Positions 1,817-16,534 of a stretch of DNA of 36,970 bases are shown here, piece after piece. The translations under genes were made by a program, and so were the position numbers. The stretch covers positions 1-36,970 of the forward strand of contig JAAWNQ010000021.1 of the NCBI GenBank assembly GCA_022799035.1, in the 5' to 3' direction. Position 1 is the stretch's first letter. Every line of letters begins with the position of its first letter. This stretch comes from Oscillospiraceae bacterium. Lineage in GTDB: Bacteria > Bacillota > Clostridia > Oscillospirales > Oscillospiraceae. The notes beneath the pieces are model-generated. The model made no database searches and had not been told where the DNA came from. It saw nothing but the letters and a program-made list of their open reading frames with translations.

Positions 1817-1830
1817 AAAGAAAAGAGAAA

Positions 1831-1858
1831 GGCCACGCCGGAAGGCGTGGCCTTTTTT
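1831..1858. terminator. Rho-independent terminator, probably bidirectional
   Basis: A perfect 9-bp stem, GGCCACGCC / GGCGTGGCC, with a GGAA loop is followed by six T on the plus strand. On the minus strand it is followed by a T-rich run, the complement of the A-rich 1815-1830. It lies between the convergent transporter and galM, so it can end both transcripts. Confidence 0.85.
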
Positions 1859-1864
1859 GTGTCC

Positions 1865-2854
1865 TCACAGGTGAAGGAAGCGGAACGAGATCCGGCGCCG
1901 GTAGACGTCCCCGGCCCGGAGGAGGGGGGAGGGGAAGTGGGGGTGATGGGGGGCGTCGGGATAGAACTGGGGCTCCAGACAGAGGCCCTGGCGGGGGCCA
2001 TAGAGGGCTCCGCCCTTTCCCGGGCGGGGGGTGAGAAAGTCGGCGGTGTAGAGCTGGACCCCCGGGAGGTTGGTGGAGAACTCCACGGCCACCCCCGAGG
2101 CGGGGGAGTGGAGGAGGGCGAAGGGGGTCTCCGCCGGGGTGTTGAGGACAAAGTTGTGGTCAAAGACCTGGCCGGAGAGTAGGGTGGGCTGGGTCAGGTC
2201 GAATGGGGTGCCCGCCACGGGGAGGATCTCTCCGGTGGGGAGGTTGTCCTTGCCGGAGGGAGTGTACTCCCGGGCGTGGAGGGTGAGGATGTGTCCGTCC
2301 ACCGTTCCGCTGTCCTGGCCGGAGAGGTTGAAATAGGCGTGGTTGGTGAGGCTCGCCACCGTGTCGGCGTCGGAGAGGGCCTCATAGGAGATGGTGAGGG
2401 AATCGGGGGTGAGGGCGTAGGTCACCTCCACCTTCAGAGTCCCGGGGAAGCCCTCGTCCCCGTGGGGGGAGGTGAGGGAGAAGGTGACGGAGTCCTCCCC
2501 CGGGGCATAGTCCCACCACTTTTTATGGAAGCCCTCCGTCCCGCCGTGGAGGGTGTTTTTCCCCTCGTTGGAGGCCAGGGGCCAGACCTTTTCCCCCAGG
2601 GGCAGGGAGGCCCCGGCGATCCGGTTGGCGTAGCGGCCGATGGTGCCCCCCAGACAGGCGTCCTGTATGGCGTACTCCTGGGGGGTGTCGTAGCCCAGGC
2701 AGAGATCCAGGCGTTTTCCATCCCGGTCGGGGAAGCGGATGGAGCGGATGGCGGCGCCGTAGGGGATCAGCTCCACCTCCAGGTCTCCGGCGGAGAGGGT
2801 GAGGAGGGGGAGGTCTTTCCCGTCAAGGGAGCCGAAGGAGGCCGTTTTCACCAT
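1865..2854 (-). CDS. galM: Aldose 1-epimerase (galactose mutarotase)
   Basis: 329 residues, the usual length for GalM. It interconverts beta- and alpha-D-galactose so that galactokinase receives the alpha anomer. The family landmarks are GRYANRIAG (residues 73-81), H103 in TLHGG, the catalytic acid H172 in TNHAYFNLSG, and the catalytic base E294 in LEPQFYPD. It is the last gene of the galactose operon. Its ATG lies 3 bp after the galE stop and has only a weak ribosome site inside the end of galE, so translational coupling is likely. The terminator at 1831-1858 follows directly. Confidence 0.95.
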   Translation of the reverse strand: MVKTASFGSLDGKDLPLLTLSAGDLEVELIPYGAAIRSIRFPDRDGKRLDLCLGYDTPQEYAIQDACLGGTIGRYANRIAGASLPLGEKVWPLASNEGKNTLHGGTEGFHKKWWDYAPGEDSVTFSLTSPHGDEGFPGTLKVEVTYALTPDSLTISYEALSDADTVASLTNHAYFNLSGQDSGTVDGHILTLHAREYTPSGKDNLPTGEILPVAGTPFDLTQPTLLSGQVFDHNFVLNTPAETPFALLHSPASGVAVEFSTNLPGVQLYTADFLTPRPGKGGALYGPRQGLCLEPQFYPDAPHHPHFPSPLLRAGDVYRRRISFRFLHL

Positions 2855-2857
2855 GGC

Positions 2858-3847
2858 TCAGTCCCCGTAGCCGTCGGGGTGGGAGGAATGCCAGGTCCAG
2901 GCGTCGGAGATGATCTGGCGAAGATCCCGCTTGGGCTTCCAGCCCAAAAGCTCCTGGGCCTTCCGGTTGGAGGCGATGAGGACAGGGGGATCCCCCGCCC
3001 GGCGGGGCTCTATGGTGGCGGGGATGGCCTTACCGGTGACGGCCCGGGCGGTGTCGATGATCTCCTTTACGCTGTATCCGTCCCCGCAGCCCAGGTTGAA
3101 GGGGCCGCTCTCCCCGCCATTGTCCAGGTACTCCAGGGCCAGAAGGTGGGCCTCGGCCAGATCCTGAACGTGGATATAGTCCCGCAGGCAGGTGCCGTCA
3201 GGGGTGGGGTAGTCGTCCCCGTAGACACCCACGTGATCCCGCTTGCCCAGGGCGCACTGGAGGACGATGGGGATGAGGTGGGTCTCGGGGTGGTGATCCT
3301 CCCCGATGCCGGCCTCCACGTCGGCTCCGGCGGCGTTGAAGTAGCGCAGGGCGGCGTACTTGACGCCGTGAGCGGCGTCACACCAGCGGAGAAGGCCCTC
3401 GATGGCCAGCTTGGAGGCCCCGTAGGGATTGATGGGGTCGGTGCGGTCGGTCTCCTCGATGGGCTGCTTCTCCGGCTCACCGTAGGTGGCGGCAGTGGAG
3501 GAGAAAACGATCTTGTTTACCCCGTGGTTTTTCATGGCGGTGAGGATGCCCACCGCACCGGAGACGTTGTTGTCATAGTACTTCAGGGGGTTGCCCACAC
3601 TTTCCCCCACCAGGGAGAAGGCGGCGAAATTGATGACCCCGTCGATGGGGAACTCGGAAAAGACCCGCTCCAAAAAGGCGGCGTCCCGCAGGTCTCCCAC
3701 CCGGAGCTTGGCTCCCTTCACCGCCTGCCAGTGGCCGGTACACAGGTTGTCTATCACCACCACGTCGTAACCCTTCCGTACCAGAAGGGCGGCCATGTGG
3801 CTGCCGATATAGCCGGCGCCGCCGGCCACCAAGATGGTTTTTAACAT
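2858..3847 (-). CDS. galE: UDP-glucose 4-epimerase
   Basis: 329 residues, an extended short-chain dehydrogenase/reductase. It reversibly converts UDP-galactose to UDP-glucose with bound NAD and closes the Leloir cycle. GGAGYIGSH (residues 9-17) is the NAD-binding glycine motif. S116/S117/T118 in FSSTA together with Y142 and K146 in PYGASK form the catalytic set. A strong AAGGAGG lies upstream of the ATG, and the gene starts 15 bp after the galT stop in the run galK-galT-galE-galM. Confidence 0.97.
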   Translation of the reverse strand: MLKTILVAGGAGYIGSHMAALLVRKGYDVVVIDNLCTGHWQAVKGAKLRVGDLRDAAFLERVFSEFPIDGVINFAAFSLVGESVGNPLKYYDNNVSGAVGILTAMKNHGVNKIVFSSTAATYGEPEKQPIEETDRTDPINPYGASKLAIEGLLRWCDAAHGVKYAALRYFNAAGADVEAGIGEDHHPETHLIPIVLQCALGKRDHVGVYGDDYPTPDGTCLRDYIHVQDLAEAHLLALEYLDNGGESGPFNLGCGDGYSVKEIIDTARAVTGKAIPATIEPRRAGDPPVLIASNRKAQELLGWKPKRDLRQIISDAWTWHSSHPDGYGD

Positions 3848-3862
3848 AAAAATTCCTCCTTT

Positions 3863-5362
3863 TTAGGGTCGGACCTGGGTGATGAACCGGAGAAAGGCGT
3901 CCTGGCCCGACCGGGTGCGCTTAAAGACGCCGGCGTGCTCCAGAACCTGGGCAAAGACCAGGCCGGTCTCCCTCTGGACGATGGAGAGGGCGTTTTCCGG
4001 GGTGATGGTGTAGTTGGGGGCAAAGGCCTCTGCCCAGTCGGCGTGTTTGGCGGTTTTCTCGCCGGAGCGGAGGTCGCCGCCCCGGGCCAGACAGTCCGCC
4101 ACCGCCGCCAGCTCCTCCTTCAGCCGGGCGGGGAGGACGGCCAGACCCATGACCTCGATGAGGCCGATGTTCTCCTTCTTGATGTGGTGGAGCTGGGCGT
4201 GGGGATGGTAGAGGCCCAGGGGGTGCTCGGGGGTGGTGAGATTGTTCCGGAGCACCAGATCCAGCTCGAAGTCCTCCCCCCGCCGCCGGGCGATGGGGGT
4301 GATGGTGTTGTGGGGCTCCCCCTCCGTCTCGGCGAAGATGAGGGCGGCTTCGTCGGTGTAGCCCCGCCAGGAGGCGAGGATCCGGTCGGCCAGCTCCACC
4401 AAGCGCTGGGGGTCCTTACAGGTGAGGCGGAGCACCGACATGGGCCACTTGACGATGCCCGCCGCCACATCCCCGAAGCCGGGGAAGGAGACGGGGGTCT
4501 CCACCGGGGCTTTTTCCATGGCGAAGGTGTAGCGGCCACCCTGGAAGTGGTCGTGGGCCAGGATGGAGCCCCCCACGATGGGAAGGTCGGCGTTGGAGCC
4601 CACGAAATAGTGGGGAAACTGGCCCACAAAGTCCAGCAGCTTGGCAAAGCAGGCACGGTCGATCTTCATGGGGGTGTGCTCCCCGTTGAAGCAGATACAG
4701 TGTTCATTATAGTACACATAGGGGGAGTATTGCAAGAACCAAGGGGAGGAGTGGATGGTGATGGGCACAACCCGGTGGTTTTGCCGGGCGGGGTGGTTCA
4801 CCCTTCCGGCGTAGCCCTCGTTCTCGGCGCAGAGCATACACCGGGGGTAAGCCGATGCGGGGAGGTTCTTGGCCGCGGCGATGGCCTTGGGGTCCTTCTC
4901 CGGCTTGGAGAGGTTGATGGTGATATCCATCTCCCCGTATTCGGTGGGGGTCTTCCACTGCATATCCTTGGCGATCCGGTCCCGGCGGATATAGTTTGTG
5001 TCCTGGCTGAAGGCGTAATACCAGTCGGTGGCCTTTTTGGGGTCCTCCTGGCGCAGGGCCTGGAAGGTGGAGCGGACCTCATGGGGCCGGGGGGTGAGGC
5101 GGCCCATGAGCTCGGTATCGAAGAGATCCCGGTAGACCACGGAATCCTCGGTAAGGCCCCGGGCGCAGGCGTCGTCCAGCAGCTCGGCCAGAATGGGGGC
5201 CAGCTCCAGCGTCCCGGGATCCCAGGTCCGCTCCGGCTCACTGTAGCTGTCCAGCTTTAATACGTCCAGGATGGTGTTGACGGCCCAGAGGTATTCGCAC
5301 TCCTTGATAAGGCCCTTCCGGAGGGCGTAGTCGGCCAGCTTGGCGATGGCGATATCCACCAT
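3863..5362 (-). CDS. galT: Galactose-1-phosphate uridylyltransferase, Firmicute type (family 2)
   Basis: 499 residues, much longer than the roughly 350-residue E. coli GalT and matching the Gram-positive family. It exchanges UMP between UDP-glucose and galactose-1-phosphate. The segments around YNEHCICFNGEHTPMKI and GGSILAHDHFQGG are diagnostic. The His-Asp-His-Phe-Gln stretch takes the place of the HxHxQ active site of family 1. The ATG at 5362 is preceded by AAGGAGG at good spacing, 12 bp after galK. The N-terminal MVDIAIAKLADYALRKGLI is also typical of this family. Confidence 0.95.
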   Translation of the reverse strand: MVDIAIAKLADYALRKGLIKECEYLWAVNTILDVLKLDSYSEPERTWDPGTLELAPILAELLDDACARGLTEDSVVYRDLFDTELMGRLTPRPHEVRSTFQALRQEDPKKATDWYYAFSQDTNYIRRDRIAKDMQWKTPTEYGEMDITINLSKPEKDPKAIAAAKNLPASAYPRCMLCAENEGYAGRVNHPARQNHRVVPITIHSSPWFLQYSPYVYYNEHCICFNGEHTPMKIDRACFAKLLDFVGQFPHYFVGSNADLPIVGGSILAHDHFQGGRYTFAMEKAPVETPVSFPGFGDVAAGIVKWPMSVLRLTCKDPQRLVELADRILASWRGYTDEAALIFAETEGEPHNTITPIARRRGEDFELDLVLRNNLTTPEHPLGLYHPHAQLHHIKKENIGLIEVMGLAVLPARLKEELAAVADCLARGGDLRSGEKTAKHADWAEAFAPNYTITPENALSIVQRETGLVFAQVLEHAGVFKRTRSGQDAFLRFITQVRP

Positions 5363-5374
5363 GACGATCCCTCC

Positions 5375-6649
5375 TTATATGAGCCGCACCCCGCCCACAG
5401 GGCGGATGGTGAGCACATGGCAGGCCCCCTGGCCCAGGAACCGGTCCATCTCTGCTTTGAAGCGATCCAGAAGATCCAGAGGGACGAAGGCCTGGACGGT
5501 GCCGGCGAAGCCGCCCCCGTGGACCCGGCAGGCTCCCCGGCTCTGGAGGAGTCCCTCGGCCAGAGCCAGGGTGAGGGCCACTTCCTGGTGGGCGGCGGCC
5601 CCGGCGGGGGCCACGTTCTGAAGGAGGCGCCAGCTGGACAGGCCAGATTCCCTCACCAGGGAGAGGAAGGCGTCGAAGTCGTTCCGGCGGAGGGCGGCCA
5701 CCTGGGCCTCCACCCGCTTGTTGTCCTCATACACGTGGATGGCCCGGAGAAGGGCCCGGTCCCCCGCCTTGGCCCGGAGCCGGGGGAGGGCGGAGTAGAA
5801 GTCGGCCTCGGGCACCTCCCGGAGGAAGGACTTGCCGAAGTGGGCACAGACCGCCTTCAGCTCCTGGGTGACGGCGGCGTACTCCCCGGTCAGGTCGGCG
5901 TGGTCGGCGCCGCTGTCGATGATGCACAGGGCGTGGCCGGCGGAGTGGAAGTCGAAGTCCACCTTCTCCACCACCGGGTCGGCGTTGTCCCGGAAGTCGA
6001 TGGTCACCATGCCTCCCACGGCGCAGCCCATCTGGTCCATAAGGCCGCAGGGCTTGCCGAAGTAGACGTTCTCGGCGTACTGGCCCACCTTGGCGATCTG
6101 AACGCTGTCGTAGCGGCCATCGCAGAAAAGCTGGTTCAGGATGGTGCCGATAAGGACCTCGAAGGCGGCGGAGGAGCTGAGGCCGCTGCCGCTCAGGACC
6201 TGGGAGGTCATGACCGCGGAGAAGCCCTCCAGGTTATGGCCCTTTCGGGTAAACCAGGCGGCCACGCCCCGGATGAGGGCGGCGGTGGTGTTGGCCTCCT
6301 CGGGGTGGAGGGTCAGATCCCGAAGATCCACCTCCAGGTCGGGGAAGCCCTCGCTTTTGATCCGGATAAGGTTTCCGCCGGTGGGGGCCACGGCGGCGAT
6401 GATGTCCAGATCCACGCTGCCGGTGAGGACCCGGCCGTGCTGGTGGTCGGTGTGGTTGCCCCCCACCTCGGTGCGGCCTGGGGCAGAGAAGAGGGCCGCC
6501 CGGTCCTGGGGGCCGAAGGCGGACTCCAGAGAGGAGAGAAGGACCTCATACCGCTTCGCCTGGGTGGGGATGGCCTGGGGGGAATAGAGGGGGGAGAGGA
6601 GCTGGGGAAGCTGGGAGCGGAGCTGGGCGGGGGAGGCTGTGATGTCCAT
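5375..6649 (-). CDS. galK: Galactokinase (GHMP kinase)
   Basis: 424 residues from the chosen start. It phosphorylates alpha-D-galactose with ATP, the first committed Leloir step. The galactokinase signature is present as GRTEVGGNHTDH (residues 58-69), a variant of the GRxNLIGEHTDY form with Asn for Glu and His for the final Tyr. The ATP-binding GHMP motif is SGSGLSSSAAFEV and the C-terminal motif is GGGFAGTVQAFVP. The frame is open to 6688, but the ATG at 6649 is preferred: it has AAAGGGAG about 7 nt upstream, and the earlier ATG would lie inside the preceding gene. The gap to the binding-protein stop is 25 bp. Confidence 0.95.
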   Translation of the reverse strand: MDITASPAQLRSQLPQLLSPLYSPQAIPTQAKRYEVLLSSLESAFGPQDRAALFSAPGRTEVGGNHTDHQHGRVLTGSVDLDIIAAVAPTGGNLIRIKSEGFPDLEVDLRDLTLHPEEANTTAALIRGVAAWFTRKGHNLEGFSAVMTSQVLSGSGLSSSAAFEVLIGTILNQLFCDGRYDSVQIAKVGQYAENVYFGKPCGLMDQMGCAVGGMVTIDFRDNADPVVEKVDFDFHSAGHALCIIDSGADHADLTGEYAAVTQELKAVCAHFGKSFLREVPEADFYSALPRLRAKAGDRALLRAIHVYEDNKRVEAQVAALRRNDFDAFLSLVRESGLSSWRLLQNVAPAGAAAHQEVALTLALAEGLLQSRGACRVHGGGFAGTVQAFVPLDLLDRFKAEMDRFLGQGACHVLTIRPVGGVRLI

Positions 6650-6674: not shown

Positions 6675-7730
6675 TTAATCCGGGTCAAGGAACTGGGACA
6701 GGTTATCCTGGGTCACGGGGCGGTAGGGGAGCCAGACATACTGGCCGTCGGTGAGGTCCACGGTCTGGGACGGATCCTCCCCGTTATAGAGGGCGAGGGC
6801 CAGGTCAATGATGGCCTGGGCCTGTCCCTTCTCGTCGTTTTTCACGGTGGCGTAGAGCTGGCCGGAGGCCATGGCCTCCAGGGCGGGGGCGGTGCCGTCG
6901 ATGCCCACGATGAGGGGCCAATCCTGCCAGTCCCGCTCCCGCATGGCGTCGATGGCCCCCAGGGCCATATCGTCGTTGTTGGAGAAGAGGACCTCGATCT
7001 GATCCCCGTAAGGCTCCAGCCACTGGCTCATCCGGCCGGCCCCCAGGGAGCGGTTCCAGTTGGCGGTATCGTTGACCAGCTTCTCCACCTCCACCCCGGC
7101 GTCGGTGAGGGCCTTGACGGAGTACTCGGTGCGGATGAGGGCATCCTGATGGCCCGGTTCCCCCTCCAGCATGGCGTACTGGAGAATACCGTCCCCGTTG
7201 CGGTCCAGCCGTTCCCGGTCCTTCTCCCAGGCCTCCAGCACCAGCCGGCCCTGGAGGGCGCCGCTCTCCTGGGCGCTGGCCCCCACGTAGTAGATCTGGC
7301 TCCAGCGCTGGATGTCCTCCTCCACCGGCTGGCGGTTGAAGAAGATGAGGGGGACGTTCTCCGCCTGGGCCTTGTCGGCCACCACGGCGGCGGCGGTCCG
7401 GTCCACGATATTGACGCACAGCACGTCGCAGCCCCGGTTCAGGAACCGGTCCACCTGATCCATCTGGGAGGTCTGGTTGCCCCGGGCGTCGGAGATGAAG
7501 AGGGTGATCTTTTCCCCCGTCTCGCTCTCCGCCTCCTGGGCCAGCCGCTCCAGGCACTGGCTCAGGGAGGAGATGAAGGTGTCCTCCTGGGCGTATAGGG
7601 CCACCCCGATCCGCAGGCCGTCGCTGTCCGTTGTTCCGCCGCCGCAGCCGGTGAGGAGCAGCAGGCAGAGGAGAAGGCAGAGCAGGTTACGAGGTGACAG
7701 GGAACAGCAGCTTTTGATTTTCCGGTTCAT
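6675..7730 (-). CDS. Galactose/glucose-binding lipoprotein, MglB paralogue
   Basis: 351 residues. A signal peptide ends in the lipobox LLTGC, so the protein should be anchored to the outer face of the membrane. The rest is a periplasmic-binding fold very like E. coli MglB. By eye the known sugar contacts are kept: Asp and Phe in QEDTF, Asn in CVNIVD, His/Asp/Arg in GHQDALIR, Trp in TANW, Asn in SNNDDMA, Asp in GIDG and Asn in VKND. A calcium loop is visible at DRNGDGILQ. The start at 7730 follows GGGGAGGA and makes a proper signal peptide; it overlaps the upstream gene by 44 bp, implying coupled translation. No permease or ATPase is adjacent, and the real uptake set is further upstream with its own MglB. 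A role as sugar receptor for the neighbouring kinase is therefore more likely than transport, though it could also feed MglA/MglC. Confidence 0.85.
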   Translation of the reverse strand: MNRKIKSCCSLSPRNLLCLLLCLLLLTGCGGGTTDSDGLRIGVALYAQEDTFISSLSQCLERLAQEAESETGEKITLFISDARGNQTSQMDQVDRFLNRGCDVLCVNIVDRTAAAVVADKAQAENVPLIFFNRQPVEEDIQRWSQIYYVGASAQESGALQGRLVLEAWEKDRERLDRNGDGILQYAMLEGEPGHQDALIRTEYSVKALTDAGVEVEKLVNDTANWNRSLGAGRMSQWLEPYGDQIEVLFSNNDDMALGAIDAMRERDWQDWPLIVGIDGTAPALEAMASGQLYATVKNDEKGQAQAIIDLALALYNGEDPSQTVDLTDGQYVWLPYRPVTQDNLSQFLDPD

Positions 7731-8610
7731 AGATATCCTCCCCTCGCAGAATGGAGAAGGGCAATGGCTCCAGGCCGCCCTTTTCCCCCTGGGCGGCGGA
7801 TACCGCCTGACGGACGGCCAGATAGCCGGCGGCATAGTCGTTCCAGGCGGCCAGGGCGGAGATGACCCCTTTTTCCAGATGGATGATGATAGCGGTGGAG
7901 GTCCCCACGCCATAGAGGGAGAAGGGGAGCTCCTGGCGGCTGTTCCTGTCGGCGGCCTGCCGGGTGGCGGAGGGCTCGAAGGCCATGACCCAGCGGTGGG
8001 AGACGTTCTCCTCGGGAAGGGCGGAGACGGTCTCGGTAGGGACGCCCAGGCCCTCCAAGGTCTCCCGGGCGGCCATCAGCCGGGCGGAGACCCCGGTGGA
8101 GGCGGGGGAGGAGTCCCAGAGGAGGACGGCGCCTCCGTCCCAATCCAGGAACAGGGCCTGGGCCAGTTGACGGCCCAGAAGGTCGTTGTCGGGGGCGGCC
8201 ACCCCGGAGAAGCTGCCCACGGGGGACTCCAGGGAGACCATGGGGCAGTGGCCGGGGAGCTGATCCAGGGTCTGGGTCAGGGAGAGGGGGTCGGCGGGGA
8301 CCACCACCAGGGCGTCGGCCCCCTCCTCCACCTCCCGGCGGAGGCTCTCGGCCTGCTCGGCGCTGTTGCCCGAGGAGGCCAGGGTGAGGAAACGAAGCTC
8401 GGCCCCCAACTCGTCGGCGGCCTGCTCCATGCCCTGACGGGCGGTGGACCAGCCGGCGCTGTCCTCGTCCCGGAGGAGAACGGACAGGCTTAGCCGCTGG
8501 GGGGGAGCTTCGGAGCGGAACAGCTGGGGGATCAGCAGGGAGAGGAGCACCGACAGGGCCAGGACCACCAGGATGATCCCCTGGATAAGGTCATTTTTTC
8601 GAGTTTTCAT
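7687..8610 (-). CDS. Membrane-anchored periplasmic-binding-protein-like sensor subunit
   Basis: 307 residues. A single uncleaved N-terminal membrane segment (about residues 9-31) is followed by an extracytoplasmic sugar-binding-protein-like domain of the Peripla_BP_4 type. It lacks the lipobox and calcium loop of its neighbour. The position of the conserved sugar-binding Asp near the C-terminus reads YGVGTST instead of GVDA, so it may bind a different ligand or none. The start overlaps the kinase stop as ATGA, a very tight coupling. By analogy with XylFII of the clostridial XylFII-LytS/YesN xylose sensor, it may form the extracellular face of the kinase complex or serve as the docking partner of the lipoprotein encoded next. 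That role is inferred from architecture and context only. Confidence 0.75.
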   Translation of the reverse strand: MKTRKNDLIQGIILVVLALSVLLSLLIPQLFRSEAPPQRLSLSVLLRDEDSAGWSTARQGMEQAADELGAELRFLTLASSGNSAEQAESLRREVEEGADALVVVPADPLSLTQTLDQLPGHCPMVSLESPVGSFSGVAAPDNDLLGRQLAQALFLDWDGGAVLLWDSSPASTGVSARLMAARETLEGLGVPTETVSALPEENVSHRWVMAFEPSATRQAADRNSRQELPFSLYGVGTSTAIIIHLEKGVISALAAWNDYAAGYLAVRQAVSAAQGEKGGLEPLPFSILRGEDIYEPENQKLLFPVTS

Positions 8611-10424
8611 AGCACATCCCCCTGCAGAAGCTGGGCTGCCTCCCGGGTGAGGGCGGGCAGGCGGATCCTGACCAGGGTCCCCTCGTCAGGCTCGGAGAAA
8701 AGAGTGAGGCCGTATTTTTCCCCGAAGGTGAGCTGGATCCGCTGGTGGACGTTGCACACCCCGATGCCCGAGCCGCTGGAGGAGCCGGAGGCGGCGGAGG
8801 GGACGGAGGGATCCAGCAGGGAGGCGGCCACCTCGGGCCGCATCCCCAGGCCGTTGTCCGATACGTCGATGAGAAGGTCCTCCCCCTCCCGGTAGGCGGT
8901 GACGGTGATCTTTCCCTCCCCCTCGGCGCTGGCCATGCCGTGATAGATGGCGTTCTCCAGCAGGGGCTGGAGGGTGAGCTTCAGGCAGTACAGTCCCTCG
9001 GTGCCGGGGAGAGAGCGGATCTCGGTGGAGAAGGTGTTCTTGAAGCGGATCTCCTGGATGGTCATGTAGTGGCGGCCGTGCTCCAGCTCGTCGGAGAGGG
9101 GGATGATATTCTTCCCCTTGCTCAGGGAGATACGGAAGAACCGGGCCAGGGAGGTGACCATCTGGACGGCCTCCTCCTGCCGTCCGGACTCGGTCATCCA
9201 GATGACCGAGTCCAAGGTGTTGTAGAGGAAGTGGGGGTTGATCTGGGACTGGAGGACCTCCAGCTCACTGCGGCGCTTCTGGCCCTCCTGCTCGATGATG
9301 TCGTCCATCAGGTGGTGCATGGTGGAGACCATGGAGCGCACCGCGTGGGCCAACTGGCGGACCTCGTAGCAGCCTGCCTCTTGGATGTCCACGTCCCAGC
9401 CCCGCTCCAGCTCCTTGATGGACCGCTCCAGCTGGCGGATAGGGTCGGAGATCCGGGCGGAGATGTGGAAGTTGAGGAAGGCCATAAGGAAGATGGAGAA
9501 GAGGACCAGGGGCAGGGCGAACTGGAAAAGCTGGAGGGAGCCGGCGGTCCAGCTCCGTTCCGGGGCCACCCCCACCAGCTTCCAGCCGGTGTAACCCACG
9601 GTCTTGACGGTGACAAGCCGGGGCTGGCCCTGGAACTGCTCCATGTGGCTGCCGTCCTTATAGCCGGCGGCGGTGAGGTTGTTCTCCTCCAGAAGGCCGG
9701 TGTAAATGAGCTGCTGCCGGGGGTGGTAGATCAGCTCCCCGTCCCCGTCGATAAGGTAGAGGTAGCCTCCATCCCCCAGGGCGGCGTCCCGGCAGACCTG
9801 CTCGATGCCGGCGAAGCTCATGTCCACCAAGAGGATGCCCCCCTGGGTGGAGCCGTCCCGGGTAAGCTGGACGTGGCGGCTCAGGGATACCACCCAGCGG
9901 TAGGGCCGGTCCGGGTCGTCAAAGAGGTTCTGGACATGGGGGGTGGAGAAGTGGAAGTTCTCCATGCTCCGGGTGGCGGTGAGGAACCAGTCCTCCCCGC
10001 TGGGGGAGACTCCGGGCTTTAGGGTGGAGAGGGGGACGGAGGACACGGGCGCTCCCCGGCTGTCAAAGACGGCCAGGGAGACCAGGGCGTCCCGGTTCTC
10101 CTCGTAGAGAAGGTTCATGGAGGGGGTGAGGCTGCCCTGGGCCAGGTCGGTATTCTTGATGACCCGGTAGTAGACCGTGTCGGAGATCCGCATCATCCGG
10201 CGCAGGTAGCTGTCCAGATTCAGGTTGGCCTGGGCCAGGATCCGCTGGCTGTTCTCCGCCACGCTCTGGCGGTTGGCGGCGGAGAAGCGCCAGAACAGGC
10301 TCAGGCCCATGATGAGGATGCCCGCCGCGGCCACCAGGGTGAAGGAGAGGGAGATGACCATCTGGATGTTCATTTTTCGATAATTTTCCGCCCATTTCCG
10401 GGCCAGATTTCGGAAAAATGACAT
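8607..10424 (-). CDS. Sensor histidine kinase, YesM/LytS-type
   Basis: 605 residues. TM1 is at about residues 20-45, followed by a large extracytoplasmic region (about 46-300) of probable dCACHE type with a DGDGELIYHP segment. A second membrane segment and HAMP-like linker follow. The His_kinase domain has the phosphoacceptor H398 in QSQINPHFLYN. The ATPase domain has N491 in LLENAIYHG, then DNGLGM and GSGIGVCNVHQRI. The ATG at 10424 has AGGAGG upstream; the frame is open to 10835, but that extension overlaps the regulator gene and does not look like protein. It is the partner of the AraC-type regulator upstream and is fused by ATGA to the binding-protein-like gene downstream, pointing to sugar sensing. 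Confidence 0.92.
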   Translation of the reverse strand: MSFFRNLARKWAENYRKMNIQMVISLSFTLVAAAGILIMGLSLFWRFSAANRQSVAENSQRILAQANLNLDSYLRRMMRISDTVYYRVIKNTDLAQGSLTPSMNLLYEENRDALVSLAVFDSRGAPVSSVPLSTLKPGVSPSGEDWFLTATRSMENFHFSTPHVQNLFDDPDRPYRWVVSLSRHVQLTRDGSTQGGILLVDMSFAGIEQVCRDAALGDGGYLYLIDGDGELIYHPRQQLIYTGLLEENNLTAAGYKDGSHMEQFQGQPRLVTVKTVGYTGWKLVGVAPERSWTAGSLQLFQFALPLVLFSIFLMAFLNFHISARISDPIRQLERSIKELERGWDVDIQEAGCYEVRQLAHAVRSMVSTMHHLMDDIIEQEGQKRRSELEVLQSQINPHFLYNTLDSVIWMTESGRQEEAVQMVTSLARFFRISLSKGKNIIPLSDELEHGRHYMTIQEIRFKNTFSTEIRSLPGTEGLYCLKLTLQPLLENAIYHGMASAEGEGKITVTAYREGEDLLIDVSDNGLGMRPEVAASLLDPSVPSAASGSSSGSGIGVCNVHQRIQLTFGEKYGLTLFSEPDEGTLVRIRLPALTREAAQLLQGDVL

Positions 10425-10630
10425 GGGGCGTCTCCCTCCTCTCTCTTGTTGTGTGGCCAGGATATGGTTCCCTGCCGGGGAACCACGGGCATCGCCCAGT
10501 CCTGCGGCAGCTCCGGCAGGCCGGACAGGGAATAGTCGTGCTCCTGGCTGGGCAGGGAACCCCGTTCGAAATTCACGGATATGCTCTCGGGGAACAGGAC
10601 GACCCGCTCCGGGGTGAAGGCGGCCTCCAT
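10370..10630 (-). CDS. Uncharacterised 86-codon ORF between regulator and kinase
   Basis: The 238-bp gap between regulator and kinase is unusual in an otherwise tightly packed operon. It contains an ORF starting MEAAFTPERVVLFPESISV that overlaps the first 55 bp of the kinase. Roughly four fifths of its codons before the overlap end in G or C, like real genes here. The same frame continues coding-like upstream of the ATG (KALRAE before the Met). No signal peptide, membrane segment or known motif is seen, and there is no Shine-Dalgarno before the ATG. It may be a remnant of a decayed gene, a small protein translated by coupling, or a chance frame. I do not recognise it. Confidence 0.3.
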   Translation of the reverse strand: MEAAFTPERVVLFPESISVNFERGSLPSQEHDYSLSGLPELPQDWAMPVVPRQGTISWPHNKREEGDAPCHFSEIWPGNGRKIIEK

Positions 10631-10662
10631 CTCGGCACGGAGGGCTTTTGATGGATCTTCTT

Positions 10663-12270
10663 TTACGGGTTGGAGCCGCTGCGGTACTTGGAGGGGGAGA
10701 GGCCGAAGCGGCGCTTAAAGACGTAGCTGAAGTAGTTGGGGTCGGTGTAGCCCGTCCGCTCGGCGATGAGGTAGGTCTTTTCGGCGGTGTCCCGGAGGAG
10801 GCGGGCGGCCTCGTCCATCCGGATCTCGGTGACATAGGTGGTGAAGGGCATCCCCACCTCCCGCTTGAAGAGGGTGGAGAAGTAGGTGGGGGAGAGGTGG
10901 AGGTGAGAGCAGACGGTATCCACGCTCAGCTCACTGTCGGCGTAGTGGGCGGCGATAAAGCTTTTGGCCTGCTCCACCAGACGCCAGGCCGAGTCGGAGC
11001 GTTGGCGGCCCAGAAGCTCCTGGAGCCTGAGACAGCGCTCCCGAAGCCAGCGGCCCAGCTCCTCCGGGCCGGAAAAGTGGTCGGTGGAGATGGAGCCGTT
11101 GAAGTTGGGGCCAAAGACCGCCTCCACCGCCACGCCGCCGGAGCGGGTCAGACGGAGGAGGAAGGCCACCAGCTCCAAAAGGAAGAGATGGCACTGGGAC
11201 AGGGATAGGCCTGCCTGCCGCAGCCGGTCCATCATCTCCCCCACCACCTGCTCCACCTGTTGGGGGGTGCCCAGCTTGACGGCGGCGGAGAGGGTGCGCT
11301 GATCCTCCTCCTCAAAGGAGAGGGTGGCGGGGACCTGGGGCTCCAGATCCCCGATGAAAATGACCCGGCCGCTGCCCTTCAGTACCCGGTAGTCCAGGGC
11401 CGAGCGGGCCCCCTTCACGCTGCGGTGGAGCTCCTCCGGCCCGTGGCAGGGAAGGCCCACCCCGGCGGTGAGGGGGACGCCCAGATAGCTCTGGGACAGG
11501 CGGCTGAGCCGCTCCAGCTCCTCCAGAAGGGGGTAGAGCCGGTCGGGGGCGGGGAGCCGCACCAGAAGGACGGGGAGATCCCCGTAGAGGACGGAGAGGA
11601 AAGGACAGTCCTCCAGCGAAAACTGTTTTTCCAGAAAGGACTGAACAGAGAGAAGGAGCAGCTCGTCCCGCTCGGCGTCGGCGGCATGGTCGGGCAGGTC
11701 GGCGTGGATCAGGGCGGCTGTCCACAGGCCGGGAGGAAGGTGGATATCATAGCGGGCGGCCCGGTCCTGGATCTGGTCGGGGGAGAGCTGACCGCTCAGG
11801 AGCCGGGTGTAGAAAAGCTCCCGCAGGATGGGCAGGCTCTCCTCATAGTGGCGGCGAAGGGCCTCCATGTCCCGGTGCTCCAGCCGCTGGGCGTCCAGCA
11901 GCTCCCGGAGCCGGGTCAGCACCCCGGAGAGCTCCTGGGCGTTGATGGGCTTAAGGATGTACTCCGACACCCCCATGCTTACCGCCTGGCGGGCGTACTC
12001 GAAGTCGTCAAAGCCGGAAAAGACTACCAGCTTAGCCCCCGGCAGGGACTGGCGCAGCCGGCGGCACAGCTCCAGGCCGTCCATGAAGGGCATCTTGATG
12101 TCGGTGAGGACCACATCGGGGTGGAGCTGGTCGCACAGCTCCAGGGCCTCCTCCCCGTTGGCCGCCTCCCCCACCAGGGTAAAGCCCAGGGAGGGCCAGT
12201 CGATCTTCCGGCTGATGCCGGAGCGGATCTCCTCCTCGTCGTCCACCAGCAGGACCCGGTATTCCTCCAT
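10663..12270 (-). CDS. Response regulator with AraC-type DNA-binding domain, YesN-type
   Basis: 535 residues. The receiver domain is at 1-120: acidic pocket D10/D11, phosphoacceptor D57 in LTDIKMPFMDG, and the lysine in YILKPI. A long middle region of about 300 residues, typical of YesN regulators, follows. The C-terminal AraC-type double helix-turn-helix (about 430-530) includes LSPTYFSTLFKREVG and the family signature GYTDPNYFSYVFKRRFGLSP. GGAGG sits 8 nt before the ATG. It heads the transcript that also carries the kinase, the two binding proteins and galKTEM. A likely target is the mglB promoter, where two 12-bp direct repeats 21 bp apart abut a poor -35; that link is inferred. Confidence 0.93.
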   Translation of the reverse strand: MEEYRVLLVDDEEEIRSGISRKIDWPSLGFTLVGEAANGEEALELCDQLHPDVVLTDIKMPFMDGLELCRRLRQSLPGAKLVVFSGFDDFEYARQAVSMGVSEYILKPINAQELSGVLTRLRELLDAQRLEHRDMEALRRHYEESLPILRELFYTRLLSGQLSPDQIQDRAARYDIHLPPGLWTAALIHADLPDHAADAERDELLLLSVQSFLEKQFSLEDCPFLSVLYGDLPVLLVRLPAPDRLYPLLEELERLSRLSQSYLGVPLTAGVGLPCHGPEELHRSVKGARSALDYRVLKGSGRVIFIGDLEPQVPATLSFEEEDQRTLSAAVKLGTPQQVEQVVGEMMDRLRQAGLSLSQCHLFLLELVAFLLRLTRSGGVAVEAVFGPNFNGSISTDHFSGPEELGRWLRERCLRLQELLGRQRSDSAWRLVEQAKSFIAAHYADSELSVDTVCSHLHLSPTYFSTLFKREVGMPFTTYVTEIRMDEAARLLRDTAEKTYLIAERTGYTDPNYFSYVFKRRFGLSPSKYRSGSNP

Positions 12271-12309: not shown

Positions 12310-12338
12310 ATTCTACCATATTTTTTCTCTCTTGAAAA
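12310..12338 (-). promoter_or_regulatory. Promoter of the regulator-kinase-gal operon
   Basis: On the minus strand TTTTCA (12333-12338) and TAGAAT (12310-12315) are 17 bp apart. The -35 lies in the last bases of the upstream operon's terminator stem, so terminator and promoter share sequence. The start would be near 12303. Confidence 0.5.
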
Positions 12339-12370
12339 TGGGGGCTGGCCTTTGCCAGCCCCCATTTTTT
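12335..12370. terminator. Terminator of the mgl operon
   Basis: A 15-bp stem, AAAATGGGGGCTGGC with its complement, around a 4-nt loop. On the minus strand the transcript leaving the mgl genes ends in TTTT then C; on the plus strand six T follow. It separates the mgl unit from the regulator-gal unit. Confidence 0.75.
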
Positions 12371-12374
12371 GATA

Positions 12375-12581
12375 TTATAGGATCCCCCTGCTGTGCAGAA
12401 AGCTCACCGCGATAATGACGACGATAGCGGCGACACACAGGCCGATGAAGATGTCGAAGGCCAGCAAAGGGACGCTGCGGAACCGCTCGTAAAAGCCGTG
12501 GAACAGGTTGGCAAATATGGAGGGCTTGTAGGGCTTTGGCTGCCCGTTGTCCCGGGAGCGCTCCTGGTTTTTGTCTGCCAT
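12375..12581 (-). CDS. Small single-pass membrane protein, last gene of the mgl operon
   Basis: 68 residues from the ATG at 12581, 1 bp after the mglC stop. A charged, proline-containing N-terminal half (MADKNQERSRDNGQPKPYKP) is followed by one hydrophobic segment at about residues 38-62 and a short tail ending HSRGIL. No cysteines or known motif are present. The spacing and the terminator right after it make it part of mglBAC. It may be an accessory of the ABC transporter, such as a stabilising or regulatory subunit, but no function is recognised. The longer frame to 12638 would reach into mglC and is not supported. Confidence 0.6.
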   Translation of the reverse strand: MADKNQERSRDNGQPKPYKPSIFANLFHGFYERFRSVPLLAFDIFIGLCVAAIVVIIAVSFLHSRGIL

Positions 12582-12582
12582 C

Positions 12583-13605
12583 TTACTTCTTGGCCACATA
12601 CTTGCGGATGTCCACCGCCACGGCCACCACGATGACAAGGCCCTGGACGATGTTGTTGTAGAAGGGGTTCACCCCCAGGAACTGGAGGACGATCTTCAAA
12701 AGTTCAAAGACCAGCACGCCCACCAGAACGCCGCCCACAGTCCCGATGCCGCCGGTGGTGGACACGCCGCCGATGGTACAGCCGGCGATGGCCTCCAGCT
12801 CATAGCCCTGGCCCAGGGTGGAGCTGGCGCCGCCGGACTTGGGGGCCAGCAGGAACCCGGCGATGGCGTACATGATGCCGGCGGTAACGTAGATGAGGAT
12901 CTTGGTCCGGCCGGTGTTGACGCCCGAGACCTCGGCGGCGTTCTCGTTGCCGCCGATGGCGTACATGTACTTGCCGTGGGTGGTCTTATTGTAGATGAAC
13001 CAGAACAGCACTCCGAAGATCAGGGCCCAGGCCAGCAGGTAGGGTACACCGGGGAAGCCGCCCTTCTCCTTGGAGGCGAACCACAGGCCGTTGACAAAGG
13101 CCTTGTAGCTGTCCTTGAAGGCGCCGATGGGCTGGGCGTTGGTAAAGACCAGGGCGATGCCGTAGACGATGGTCTGGGTGCCCAGGGTGGCGATGAAGGG
13201 GGGCACGTTGAGCTTGGAGATGATGAGACCGTTAATAAGGCCGATGAAGGCGCCCAGGGCCACCACGATGACCAGGGCCACGGGGATGGAGAACTCCGGC
13301 CACTGGTACATCCGGGCGGAGTAGCCGGGATCCTGGAGGAGGGTTCCGGCCAGGCAGGCGGCCAGGCCCACCTGGCGGCCGGCGGACAGGTCGGTGCCCT
13401 TGGTGATCAGGCAGCCCGACACGCCCAGGGCGATGAGGAAGCGGACGGTGGTGTTGCTGATCAGGGCGTTCAGGTTCCGGAAGGAGAAGAAGTTGGGCAC
13501 AAACATGCCCATGGCCAGACTGACCACCGTCAGCAGGACAACGATGGGGTTATTCTTGATCCAACTCCAAACGGAGCCTAAAATGTTGGTTTTTTTCTTT
13601 TCCAT
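12583..13605 (-). CDS. mglC: Galactose/methyl-galactoside ABC transporter permease
   Basis: 340 residues and about ten hydrophobic segments, a BPD_transp_2 permease. It forms the membrane channel of the galactose importer with MglA and MglB. The segment around SGCLITKGTDLSAGRQVGLA is characteristic of MglC/RbsC-type permeases, and the later GIALVFTNAQPIGAFKDSY also fits MglC. The ATG has AAGGAGG upstream. It is the third gene of mglBAC, 30 bp after mglA. Confidence 0.93.
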   Translation of the reverse strand: MEKKKTNILGSVWSWIKNNPIVVLLTVVSLAMGMFVPNFFSFRNLNALISNTTVRFLIALGVSGCLITKGTDLSAGRQVGLAACLAGTLLQDPGYSARMYQWPEFSIPVALVIVVALGAFIGLINGLIISKLNVPPFIATLGTQTIVYGIALVFTNAQPIGAFKDSYKAFVNGLWFASKEKGGFPGVPYLLAWALIFGVLFWFIYNKTTHGKYMYAIGGNENAAEVSGVNTGRTKILIYVTAGIMYAIAGFLLAPKSGGASSTLGQGYELEAIAGCTIGGVSTTGGIGTVGGVLVGVLVFELLKIVLQFLGVNPFYNNIVQGLVIVVAVAVDIRKYVAKK

Positions 13606-13635: not shown

Positions 13636-15147
13636 TTACGCGAACTGGGCGGCCAGCTCCATGATGTTCTCCTGGGTGGCGTCCTTGCCGTCGATGAAGC
13701 CGGTGACCCGGCCGTCGCACATGACCATGATCCGGTCGGACATACCGATGAGCTCCCCCATCTCCGAGGAGATCATGATGATGCTCTTGCCCTGTTTGGC
13801 CAGCTCGGCGATGATGCAGTAGATCTCGTACTTGGCACCCACGTCGATGCCCCGGGTGGGCTCATCCAGGATGAGGACGTCGGGGTCGTTGGCCAACCAC
13901 CGGCCGATGAGGACCTTCTGCTGGTTTCCGCCGGAGAGGGATTGGATCTGGGTCTTGCTGGAGGGGGTCTTGATGTTCATTTTTTGGACGTTGTCCTGGA
14001 CCAGCTTTTCCACCTTTTTACTGTTGATGGCCACGCCCAAGTCCAGATACTGGCTGAGGGAGGCCACCGAGATGTTGTCCGCCACGCTGAGCACCCCCAG
14101 GATGCCGGTGGCCCGGCGGTCCTCGGTGAGCATGGCCACACCCTGGTCAATGGCGTCCTTGGGCCGGGAGATCTTCAGCTCCTTACCCTTGTATGTAACG
14201 GTGCCGGTGGTGTGGGAGCGGATACCGAACAGGCCTTCCATCAGCTCGGTGCGCTGGGCGCCCACAAGGCCGCCCACCCCCAGGATCTCCCCCTTGCGCA
14301 GCTCGAAGTTTACATTGCGGAAGCTCTTGGGGTTGATGGAGGTGAAGTCCTTCACCTGGAACACCACCTCGCCGGGGACATTCTCCCGGGGGGGATAAAG
14401 GTTGGTGAGCTCCCGGCCCACCATCTTGGAGATGATGAAGTCGGTGGTGAGGCCCTTGGACTCCCATGTGCCGATATACTGGCCGTCCCGCATGATGGTG
14501 ACCTCGTCGGAGATCCGGAGGATCTCGTCCATCTTGTGGGAGATGTAGACGATGGACACCCCCTCGGCCTTCAGATCCTCCACGATACGGAACAGGGCCT
14601 CCACCTCGTTCTGGGTCAGGGAGGAGGTGGGCTCGTCCAGGATGAGGACCTTACAGTTGGCGCTCACCGCCTTGGCGATCTCCACCGACTGCATCTGGGA
14701 GACGCTGAGCTCCCCCAGCTTCTGCTTGGGGTCGAAGTCCATGCGGACCTTCTTCAGCAGGGCGGCGGTCTCCTCGTACATCTTTTTGTGATCTACCATG
14801 GGGATGAAGCCCAGGGCCTTCTTCATGGGGTAGCGGCCCAGGAAGATGTTCTCCCCGATGGTCCGGGCGGGGATGGGCTGGAGCTCCTGATGGACCATGG
14901 CGATGCCCTTGTGCAGGGCGTCCAGGGGATCCCGGATATCCACCTTCTCCCCCTCGAAGAAGATCTCCCCCTCATCCATCTTGTAAATGCCGAACATACA
15001 CTTCATGAGGGTGGACTTTCCGGCGCCGTTTTCTCCCATCAGAGCGTGGACGGTGCCGGGACGGAGCTTCAGCTGGGCGTGATCCAGGGCCTTGACGCCC
15101 GGGAAGGACTTGCATACGTCCCGCATCTCCAAACGGTACTCGCTCAT
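13636..15147 (-). CDS. mglA: Galactose/methyl-galactoside import ATP-binding protein
   Basis: 503 residues with two ABC ATPase domains in one chain, the standard architecture for monosaccharide importers. The first domain has Walker A GENGAGKST, signature LSVSQMQSVEIAKA and Walker B VLILDEPT. The second has the usual degenerate Walker A region (GVGGLVGAQRTELMEG), signature LSGGNQQKV and Walker B VLILDEPT. It energises galactose uptake through MglC. The ATG at 15147 is chosen because AGGAGG lies 8 nt upstream and the MSEYRLEMRDVCKSFPGVKA start is typical; the frame upstream is non-homologous. Confidence 0.95.
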   Translation of the reverse strand: MSEYRLEMRDVCKSFPGVKALDHAQLKLRPGTVHALMGENGAGKSTLMKCMFGIYKMDEGEIFFEGEKVDIRDPLDALHKGIAMVHQELQPIPARTIGENIFLGRYPMKKALGFIPMVDHKKMYEETAALLKKVRMDFDPKQKLGELSVSQMQSVEIAKAVSANCKVLILDEPTSSLTQNEVEALFRIVEDLKAEGVSIVYISHKMDEILRISDEVTIMRDGQYIGTWESKGLTTDFIISKMVGRELTNLYPPRENVPGEVVFQVKDFTSINPKSFRNVNFELRKGEILGVGGLVGAQRTELMEGLFGIRSHTTGTVTYKGKELKISRPKDAIDQGVAMLTEDRRATGILGVLSVADNISVASLSQYLDLGVAINSKKVEKLVQDNVQKMNIKTPSSKTQIQSLSGGNQQKVLIGRWLANDPDVLILDEPTRGIDVGAKYEIYCIIAELAKQGKSIIMISSEMGELIGMSDRIMVMCDGRVTGFIDGKDATQENIMELAAQFA

Positions 15148-15194
15148 AAGCAAAACCTCCTGTCTCCATTGATCGCTCCCGAACTCAGGGGAAG

Positions 15195-15214
15195 AGGGCC
15201 GCGCCGGCGGCCCT
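15195..15214 (-). repeat. Short hairpin in the mglB-mglA gap
   Basis: AGGGCCGC and GCGGCCCT are perfectly complementary across a 4-nt centre. It lies 48 bp upstream of mglA and has no T-tract. Confidence 0.5.
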
Positions 15215-15279
15215 GCTCCGCTCAGGCCGGGGGAGATCAAGGGTGATTTCCAACCTGATATGGGTCTCACAAGTTCAGA

Positions 15280-15312
15280 CTGTGGGTGGACGGCTGTGCC
15301 GTCCACCCACAG
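15280..15312 (-). repeat. Strong hairpin just after mglB, probable mRNA-stabilising element
   Basis: Two perfect 15-bp arms (CTGTGGGTGGACGGC and complement) surround a 3-nt loop, 25 bp after the mglB stop. No T-run follows on the minus strand, so it is not a standard terminator. In binding-protein operons such hairpins typically protect the upstream mRNA so that the binding protein is made in excess over ATPase and permease. The 190-bp gap to mglA contains only this and the smaller hairpin at 15195-15214. Confidence 0.7.
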
Positions 15313-15337: not shown

Positions 15338-16405
15338 TTACTTCACGTAGTTGGCGTCCACCTTCACGTAGTCGACCCAGTAGTAGTTCTCGATGCTCTT
15401 GCCTTCCAGCAGCTCGATGCCCACGTCAACAGCCTTGTGGGACTGGCCGATGTGGTCGTTGAGGACGGTGCCGGTCATGGTGCCATCCTTGACCATCTTC
15501 TGGCACTCCTCCAGAGCGTCAACGCCCAGCAGGTAGATGTCCTCGCCCACCTTGCGGCCGGCCTGCTCAATGGCGGTAGCGGCGCCCAGAGCCATGCCGT
15601 CGTTGTTGCAGAAGATGACGTCGATCTTGTCGCCAAACTGGTTCAGAGCGTTCTGGGCGATCTGCTGGCCCTGGGCGGTATCCCAGTTGCCGATGTTGGA
15701 GACCAGCTCCTCCACCTCGATGCCGGCGTCGGTGAGGGCCTTGATGGAGAACTCGGTGCGGTACTGAGCGTCGGGGTTCTCGGGGTCGCCGATGATCATG
15801 ACATAGGAGACCTTGCCGTCGCCGTTGATGTCGCCCTTGTCGGCCAGATCGCGGACGATCTCGCCCTGGTAAGTACCGGACTGACGGGCGTCAGCGCCCA
15901 CGTAGCAAACCTCGGCGTTGTCCACGATGCCGGGGTAGGACTCGTCCACGGTGTTGCCGTCGGCGTCCACGCCCAGAGGCTCACGGTTGATGAGCACCAT
16001 GGGGATGCCGGCGTCCACAGCCAGGTCGATGAGGGTGTCGGCGGAGGAGGTCTGGACAGGGTTGCAGATGATCAGATCCATGCCCTGGGTGATGAAGTTG
16101 TTGATCTGGTTGGTCTGCTCGGCCATGTCGTTCTTGCCGTCCTGAGTGACCACGTTGTACTTGACGGTGTCTGTCTCCTTGCTCTTGAAGTAGCTCTCCA
16201 GCTCGTTGCGGTACAGGGTCATGAAGTTGTCGTTGAACTGGTAGATGGACACGCCGATGTTGTAGGTCTTGACCTCAGCGGCGGGCTCGGAGACGGCGGG
16301 ATCGGGATTAGCGGCCTGGGTGGGAGTGGGCTCCTTGGGAGCGCAGCCGGCGAACAGGCCCGTGAGCATGACCAGAGACAGTGCGAAAGCGATCTTCTTT
16401 TTCAT
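15338..16405 (-). CDS. mglB: Galactose-binding lipoprotein of the Mgl ABC transporter
   Basis: 355 residues. The lipoprotein signal ends in LFAGC with Cys21 as the lipidated residue, followed by a Pro/Ala-rich linker. The body is a galactose/glucose-binding fold with a calcium loop at DINGDGKVSY. By eye the sugar contacts correspond to those of E. coli MglB: Asp/Phe in FNDNF, Asn in ICNPV, Asp/Arg in NPDAQYR, Trp in GNW, Asn in CNNDGMA, Asp in GVDALEE and Asn in VLND. The one difference seen is Asn where E. coli has His152. It delivers sugar to MglA/MglC. AAGGAGGATCACC precedes the ATG. Codon use suggests high expression, as expected for a binding protein. Confidence 0.95.
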   Translation of the reverse strand: MKKKIAFALSLVMLTGLFAGCAPKEPTPTQAANPDPAVSEPAAEVKTYNIGVSIYQFNDNFMTLYRNELESYFKSKETDTVKYNVVTQDGKNDMAEQTNQINNFITQGMDLIICNPVQTSSADTLIDLAVDAGIPMVLINREPLGVDADGNTVDESYPGIVDNAEVCYVGADARQSGTYQGEIVRDLADKGDINGDGKVSYVMIIGDPENPDAQYRTEFSIKALTDAGIEVEELVSNIGNWDTAQGQQIAQNALNQFGDKIDVIFCNNDGMALGAATAIEQAGRKVGEDIYLLGVDALEECQKMVKDGTMTGTVLNDHIGQSHKAVDVGIELLEGKSIENYYWVDYVKVDANYVK

Positions 16406-16470: not shown

Positions 16471-16534
16471 ATTTTACTAAAGAAGGAGGGGAAAAACGAT
16501 AGAAAATTCTTGGATGTTCCATGAAAAAACTTGG
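16471..16534 (-). promoter_or_regulatory. mglB promoter with tandem activator-like direct repeats
   Basis: On the minus strand the -10 is TAAAAT (16471-16476). At 17-bp spacing the -35 is TCGTTT (16494-16499), a very poor match. Immediately upstream are GAAAATTCTTGG (16502-16513, plus strand) and GAAAAAACTTGG (16523-16534), identical at 10 of 12 positions and starting exactly 21 bp apart. A weak -35 with two same-face direct repeats is the classic layout for an AraC-type activator, so these are candidate sites for the regulator encoded at 10663-12270. The rest of 16406-16759 is AT-rich and holds the palindrome at 16440-16460, a small TCCGA/TCGGA inverted repeat at 16568-16582 and the divergent RidA promoter. 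Confidence 0.55.

Follow-up and report, generated by a model that had tools for sequence, protein, structure and literature searches.

The DNA analysed here, called the window, is a stretch of 36,970 nt from an Oscillospiraceae bacterium (contig JAAWNQ010000021.1). It carries a candidate galactose-sensing cassette with two binding proteins (BP1 and BP2), and all window features given below lie on the minus strand. The genes follow each other in the order mglB, mglA, mglC, regulator, kinase, BP1, BP2, galK, galT, galE and galM. An earlier note on this DNA had described the order from the regulator to galKTEM, together with the overlaps, and gene calls and domains bore this out. The mglBAC genes, which are directly upstream on the same strand, were absent from that note.

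The regulator is a YesN-type response regulator (10663..12270) with REC, GGDEF_2 and AraC HTH domains. It is followed by a YesM-type histidine kinase (8607..10424; 605 aa) with a dCache_1 ectodomain, HAMP, His_kinase and HATPase; its start was placed at 10424 as the best start. BP1 (7687..8610; 307 aa) is a membrane-anchored binding protein with a degenerate pocket, and BP2 (6675..7730; 351 aa) is an MglB-like lipoprotein with an intact galactose site and the lipobox LTGC. The intergenic distances from the regulator to galM are 238, -4, -44, 25, 12, 15 and 3 nt. The BP1 start lies inside the kinase stop codon (ATGA, a 4-nt overlap), and BP2 starts 44 nt ahead of the BP1 stop. The gap between regulator and kinase (238 nt, 10425-10662) is far longer than in two other loci, L015 (14 nt) and L017 (20 nt), and another open frame in it extends into the kinase gene.

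Pocket states of the two binding proteins

In the comparison of BP2 with the structure 1gca, all 11 galactose-contact positions of the E. coli-type MglB were matched, and these positions were near invariant across 96 distinct BP2s. The NCBIfam MglB score of BP2 was 264 bits, which is under the equivalog cut-off of 420. BP2 is predicted to be a sugar-competent MglB-type binding protein. The BP2s formed one clade (96 rows) with a support of 93 in the Shimodaira–Hasegawa-like approximate likelihood ratio test (SH-aLRT), or 100 without locus L208, and stood apart from the transport MglBs. The latter were spread over at least three lineages at these loci. Most transport MglBs had N for H152 (68 of 75), and 46 of 75 had Q at position 256. 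The mglB product of the window, a transport galactose/glucose-binding protein (15338..16405), likewise has H replaced by N at E. coli position 152. The sugar preference of the transport MglBs perhaps differs from that of BP2.

BP1 has the fold of the Peripla_BP_4 family. The structure model reached a predicted local distance difference test (pLDDT) score of 91.0 and showed an N-terminal helix at residues 2-31. At the pocket columns D, R, N, D and Q, the BP1 of the window has E128, R177, E212, G236 and W256, so the pocket set is not kept. Both N234 and D260 (numbering of L192, a locus with one binding protein) were lost in 91 of the 95 distinct BP1s from two-protein loci, L208 counted in, and G was found at the second key position (D260) in 91 of 95. 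Both residues were kept in 21 of 23 and in 6 of 6 one-protein BP1s. The lipobox was seen in none of 107 intact two-protein BP1s, compared with 14 of 29 one-protein BP1s by pattern and 20 by eye. Among solved structures, GanP (6gq0, 6gt9 and 6guq) ranked first against the BP1 profile (1.6e-26). LuxP and TorT complexes did not occur among the 50 structure rows listed, which says nothing against them.

Some rows were assigned or removed by hand. L187, with its BP2 split across two frames, was counted as a two-protein locus, and L067 was excluded as truncated. The pocket counts leave out L069 and L119 (truncated), the second hits of L200 and L206, and L210, L215, L217 and L224 (no kinase found directly upstream). 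The 23 one-protein rows are 24 minus L134. This locus had been a candidate for a pocketless BP1 without BP2 and was rejected, since BP2 and MglB sit on another contig of that genome. The C-terminal LLFP of BP1 was considered as a kinase-docking tag and dropped, as milder forms occur in the ribose-type binding proteins 4rxt and 4wut.

Conservation of the cassette and of its candidate operator

A search with BP1 gave matches in 14 of 250 genomes of the family, of which 12 were strong (E ≤2.5e-27). Orthologues of BP1, BP2 and the kinase co-occurred in the same 12 genomes. There, BP2 scored at least 295 bits (next match 210) and the kinase at least 511 bits (next match 345). All three were without a match in the four same-genus genomes examined. 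Binding proteins kept without the kinase, which the earlier note had named as a finding that would speak against its proposal, were not seen among the 250 genomes: the same 12 hold all three. Likewise, no intact two-protein BP1 without a kinase was seen in the collected loci; the BP1s of L069 and L119 are cut by the contig end.

A profile scan of named genome contigs (best 80 of 99 loci) gave loci from Oscillibacter, Lawsonibacter, Pseudoflavonifractor, Flavonifractor, Butyricicoccus, Gemmiger, Fournierella and others. The order mglBAC, regulator, kinase, BP1 and BP2 was nearly constant where the contigs extend far enough; in L024, L025 and L133, mglBAC was placed after BP2. For 104 of the 144 collected BP1-type open reading frames (ORFs), the kinase was directly upstream and BP2 directly downstream. 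The 4-nt overlap of kinase and BP1 ending in TGA was found in 94 of 103 loci (ATGA in 77, GTGA in 16 and TTGA in 1). The conserved core therefore consists of mglBAC and regulator-kinase-BP1-BP2; it is represented by 94 distinct BP1s, most of which come from the taxonomic order to which the window belongs. Because the gene order recurs across genera, it is beyond chance. The earlier note had suggested a search for this order in other Oscillospiraceae and had proposed a unit of one apparently sugar-competent and one degenerate binding protein; the conserved core order and the co-occurrence in 12 of 250 family genomes agree with this unit.

The kinase tree included 43 of the 90 distinct two-protein kinases, and these formed one clade (support 100). 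L208 was placed outside, beside the one-protein L192. Both the kinase and the BP1 of L208 are of the type seen at one-protein loci, and its BP1 retains pocket and lipobox. Its BP2-like protein adjoins mglA and mglC, is the sole binding protein of that kind in the stretch read and forms the deepest branch of the BP2 clade. In the simplest scenario, which is drawn from the trees, the receptor would be a former transport MglB that was taken over from beside a one-protein sensor. BP1 would then have given up its pocket and lipid anchor, and more than one replacement of the transporter would have followed.

Fused double binding proteins adjoin YesM-YesN pairs and CUT2-type transporters in L139, L141, L143 and L144. 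The fused ORFs are of about 630 aa (L139 6585-8465, L141 4177-6087, L143 5914-7827 and L144 6045-7958, all on the minus strand), and a further one lies beside YesN in L145 (1347-3260, plus strand). Two Peripla_BP_4 domains were found by Pfam in those of L139, L141 and L143. The fused ORFs may represent a two-receptor sensor in one protein. Two binding proteins with one kinase thus occur more than once as a design. A galM-like gene adjoins the fused ORF in L143 and L144. ORFs of 614 aa lie beside mglA/mglC-like genes in L137 (1201-3045, minus strand; two binding-protein domains by Pfam) and L138 (3306-5150, plus strand), with no kinase within the available stretch. In L142 (3703-5616, minus strand), a methyl-accepting signalling domain is followed by Peripla_BP_4 in one protein.

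The candidate operator (16497..16531; 35 bp) lies 91 nt ahead of the mglB ATG and consists of AGWWTTTTCWWW in direct repeat at a spacing of 21 bp. A -10-like TAAAAT (16471..16476) follows at an offset of 20. When the regions before mglB were aligned, they had AGTTTTTTCAT-N7-CCAAGAATTTTCTATCG in common. Of the 54 loci that have mglA and a long enough upstream region, 48 were found to carry the operator by a weight matrix built from 19 sites (32 loci outside the training set). No match of at least 9 bits occurred in 2.7 Mb of reversed control sequence, both strands counted. The 54 loci, like the 78 used for the gal neighbours below, are named loci that passed the filters, some on short contigs. 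In 47 of 50 loci with the operator, TAnAAT follows it at an offset of 20; two loci have an offset of 19, and one is without the motif. At this fixed offset, the second half-site overlaps the place of the -35, which is the layout of an activated promoter.

The genome of the window has a single operator site at up to 3 mismatches, namely 16497-16531. A second site of at least 12 bits was not found in the window, and none was found before yesN or galK. A looser pattern (up to 1 mismatch) occurred exactly once in each of 10 of the 250 family genomes; all 10 belong to the 12 that carry the cassette, and the control gave 0. The pattern was partly derived from the same genomes; therefore, only its uniqueness and its absence elsewhere are informative. 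A search for half-sites in 22 distant or operator-less loci gave pairs only in L187 and L222, and one of the two L187 pairs lies inside the BP1 gene. As the operator was retained despite MglBACs of different lineages, it appears to be tied to the sensor rather than to the transporter. The cassette's own regulator would be the protein that binds it.

Transcripts and the gal genes

Between mglB and the regulator lie mglA (13636..15306 as the listed ORF, start likely near 15148; ATPase, NCBIfam MglA 686 bits) and mglC (12583..13605; permease). A terminator-like hairpin (12335..12368; -29.4 kcal/mol, z -5.76) separates the mgl operon from the regulator gene. A promoter-like TTTTCA-17-TAGAAT with TG (12310..12338) is the putative start of the sensor/gal transcript. 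The gal genes are galK (5375..6649), galT (3863..5362), galE (2858..3847) and galM (1865..2854), with another terminator-like hairpin past galM (1828..1855). The scan that gave this promoter and the hairpin past galM found 10 promoter-like sites with 1.9 expected and 18 terminator-like sites with 9.9 expected, and these are consensus matches only.

In the mglC-yesN gap, a terminator-like hairpin was found in 50 of 62 loci compared with 9 of 234 control windows inside kinase genes. Of 60 loci, 46 had TATAAT or TATACT in the 125 nt ahead of yesN, compared with 62 of 1200 shuffles. A single transcript from the regulator through galM is plausible. Given the hairpin and the separate promoter-like site before yesN, the gal genes of the window probably ride on the sensor transcript; gal expression through read-through from the mgl promoter is possible. 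A 68-aa ORF in the same gap (12375-12581) begins at the mglC stop and has one likely membrane helix. It has relatives in ten loci (E <0.001), matches no known Pfam family and is possibly a small partner of the transporter.

Among the 78 named two-protein loci, only nine had a same-strand gal gene no more than 250 nt downstream of BP2. A further 12 had gal further downstream on that strand, and 57 had none downstream on it; any gal gene within the available stretch was found in 32. In L058, L060, L062, L070, L112, L114 and L127, galK is divergent from mglB with the operator in the common gap. The Leloir genes are outside the conserved core. For this genome, the earlier description of the sensor as built into the Leloir operon is correct. 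As a general account it is not supported, since gal was close downstream on the same strand in only nine of the 78 loci and the only strong operator of the window precedes mglB, not yesN or galK. No predicted site supports a direct action of the regulator on gal. In L023, an AraC-like gene (7566-8462, plus strand) lies on the opposite strand between BP2 and galK, and L020 has a similar one. It is perhaps a separate regulator of the local gal genes.

Proposed mechanism, alternatives and known systems

The reading we favour, with somewhat better than even confidence, is a galactose four-component system in which the pocket-dead BP1 passes the signal on to the kinase and a single transporter promoter is switched on. 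The gene set, the pocket states, the clades and the operator with its phase are read from the DNA itself. We infer galactose as the signal, the protein contacts, the sign of regulation, the route from BP2 over BP1 to the kinase and the binding of the regulator to the operator. Extracellular galactose (or glucose) would close BP2, a lipoprotein descended from an MglB-type transport protein. Closed BP2 would act on a membrane complex of BP1 and the dCache kinase. BP1 would be an old sensor binding protein that gave up both sugar site and lipid anchor, acquired a transmembrane helix and took on the role of relay or adaptor. The kinase would phosphorylate the YesN-type regulator, and this would bind the tandem half-sites ahead of mglB and activate the mglBAC promoter, with its -10 lacking a good -35. 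With the hairpin past mglC and a promoter of their own, the sensor genes would form a separate unit with basal expression. In the genome of the window, the Leloir genes would travel on this second transcript.

For BP1 itself, the chances seem evenly balanced that it is a pseudo-binding-protein, that is, an ex-receptor turned into a transmembrane relay between a recruited galactose binder and a dCache kinase, within a circuit that has a single private operator. Several results weigh against the mechanism. The two-protein set looks single-origin, so the pocket loss is one event and not many independent ones. In 87 paired sets of BP1, BP2 and kinase, covariation between the BP1 or BP2 and the kinase ectodomain was without excess over the cytoplasmic control, and the control exceeded the BP1-ectodomain signal; the effective number was 62, so depth was perhaps limiting. 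GanP, which binds glucose/galactose, has S at the N234 column in the alignment with BP1 relatives, and N alone is therefore not diagnostic. The operator was not found in six of the 54 loci (L120, L129, L132, L133, L135 and L136), nor did the pattern occur in two of the 12 family genomes, G160 and G206, which have divergent cassettes; hence, the operator is not universal. Moreover, the tandem sites could belong to another regulator.

It is unlikely, though the best of the alternatives, that BP2 is the sole sensor and docks directly on the dCache domain, while BP1 restrains the kinase, either as a negative subunit in its own right or as an assembly factor. In LevQRST, LevT with its transmembrane part alone gives a negative signal (PMC3043104), and the BP1 gene adjoins the kinase gene with the 4-nt overlap in 94 of 103 loci. 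However, an intact-pocket BP1 directly beside the kinase in the one-protein relatives suggests that BP1 is the ancestral kinase partner. We consider it less probable still that BP2 is a second transport protein for MglAC and that BP1 alone signals, with another ligand in a rebuilt pocket. The conserved replacement residues of BP1 (G in 91 of 95 distinct sequences) fit a reshaped function, and BP2 looks like a normal MglB. But BP2 remains with the kinase while the transporter MglB stems from at least three lineages, and it co-occurs with BP1 and the kinase in 12 of the 12 family genomes. Direct sensing of a small molecule by the dCache domain, with both binding proteins merely tuning affinity, is improbable: direct binding is frequent among dCache domains (PMC6321045) and CuaSR still perceives cellobiose without CuaD (PMC10384115), but this leaves the joint retention of BP1, BP2 and kinase unexplained.

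If this mechanism holds, with BP1 as a pseudo-binding-protein, the cassette would illustrate how a three-component sensor becomes a four-component one, and L208 would be a surviving ancestral-like stage. Sugar sensing would move between binding proteins while the first turns into a structural relay. It would also give a parts list for galactose control in Oscillospirales: regulator, kinase, relay, receptor, a 35-bp operator and one promoter. To our knowledge, there is little experimental work on sugar regulation in these gut bacteria. No description of this gene set was found in the literature searched, and most subscription journals lay outside this search.

GanP of Geobacillus stearothermophilus is a solved relative of BP1. 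It is a single protein that binds glucose/galactose itself, and it is reportedly part of the three-component system GanPST. We know of no second binding protein that acts as a relay for GanP. The earlier view that no galactose version had been described is doubtful, as the structure entry of GanP, the top solved hit for BP1, bears the title of a glucose-galactose binding protein. BP2 belongs to the fold family of MglB/GGBP of Escherichia coli and has its 11 contact positions; however, BP2 accompanies a kinase, and the transporter has its own MglB.

XylFII-LytS-YesN of Clostridium beijerinckii resembles the cassette in BP1, which is alike in fold and design by PDB profile and fold matches. It has one sensor protein, which itself binds xylose, whereas here there are two, and BP1 is without the pocket residues. 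The sensor domain of LytS is reportedly a four-helix bundle, unlike the dCache domain of the window kinase. CuaDSR of Ruminiclostridium cellulolyticum likewise has a lipoprotein sensor apart from the transport binding protein, a kinase, a regulator and control of an ABC importer; it responds to cellobiose and has one sensor binding protein (PMC10384115).

XylFII-LytS had been named as the nearest design. This place goes to LevQRST of Streptococcus mutans, which already combines a single kinase and a single regulator with two ABC-type sugar-binding proteins (PMC3043104), and the kinase here is of the dCache type. In LevQRST, full activation requires both binding proteins, and LevQ is needed for the integrity of the complex (PMC3043104). 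It is the closest in architecture, with a parts list common to the window set (LevQ and LevT being likened by description); like BP1, LevQ at least has a predicted transmembrane anchor. LevQRST senses fructose and mannose and controls fruAB and an operon of the phosphotransferase system. Its binding-protein genes flank the two-component pair, and no functional ABC transporter gene is reported nearby. For LevS, the prediction is up to five transmembrane segments with little of the protein exposed on the outside, whereas the window kinase has dCache_1 at 53-285. The window pair is of the YesM/YesN kind, with His_kinase (PF06580) and HATPase in the kinase and REC and AraC HTH in the regulator. 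Because of the dCache_1 ectodomain, the window set is similar in parts and is not filed as a member of LevQRST. Two binding proteins on one kinase are thus already known from the published account of LevQRST, and the set described here is set apart from known systems by its dCache kinase, its degenerate BP1, its MglB-type BP2 and its single operator.

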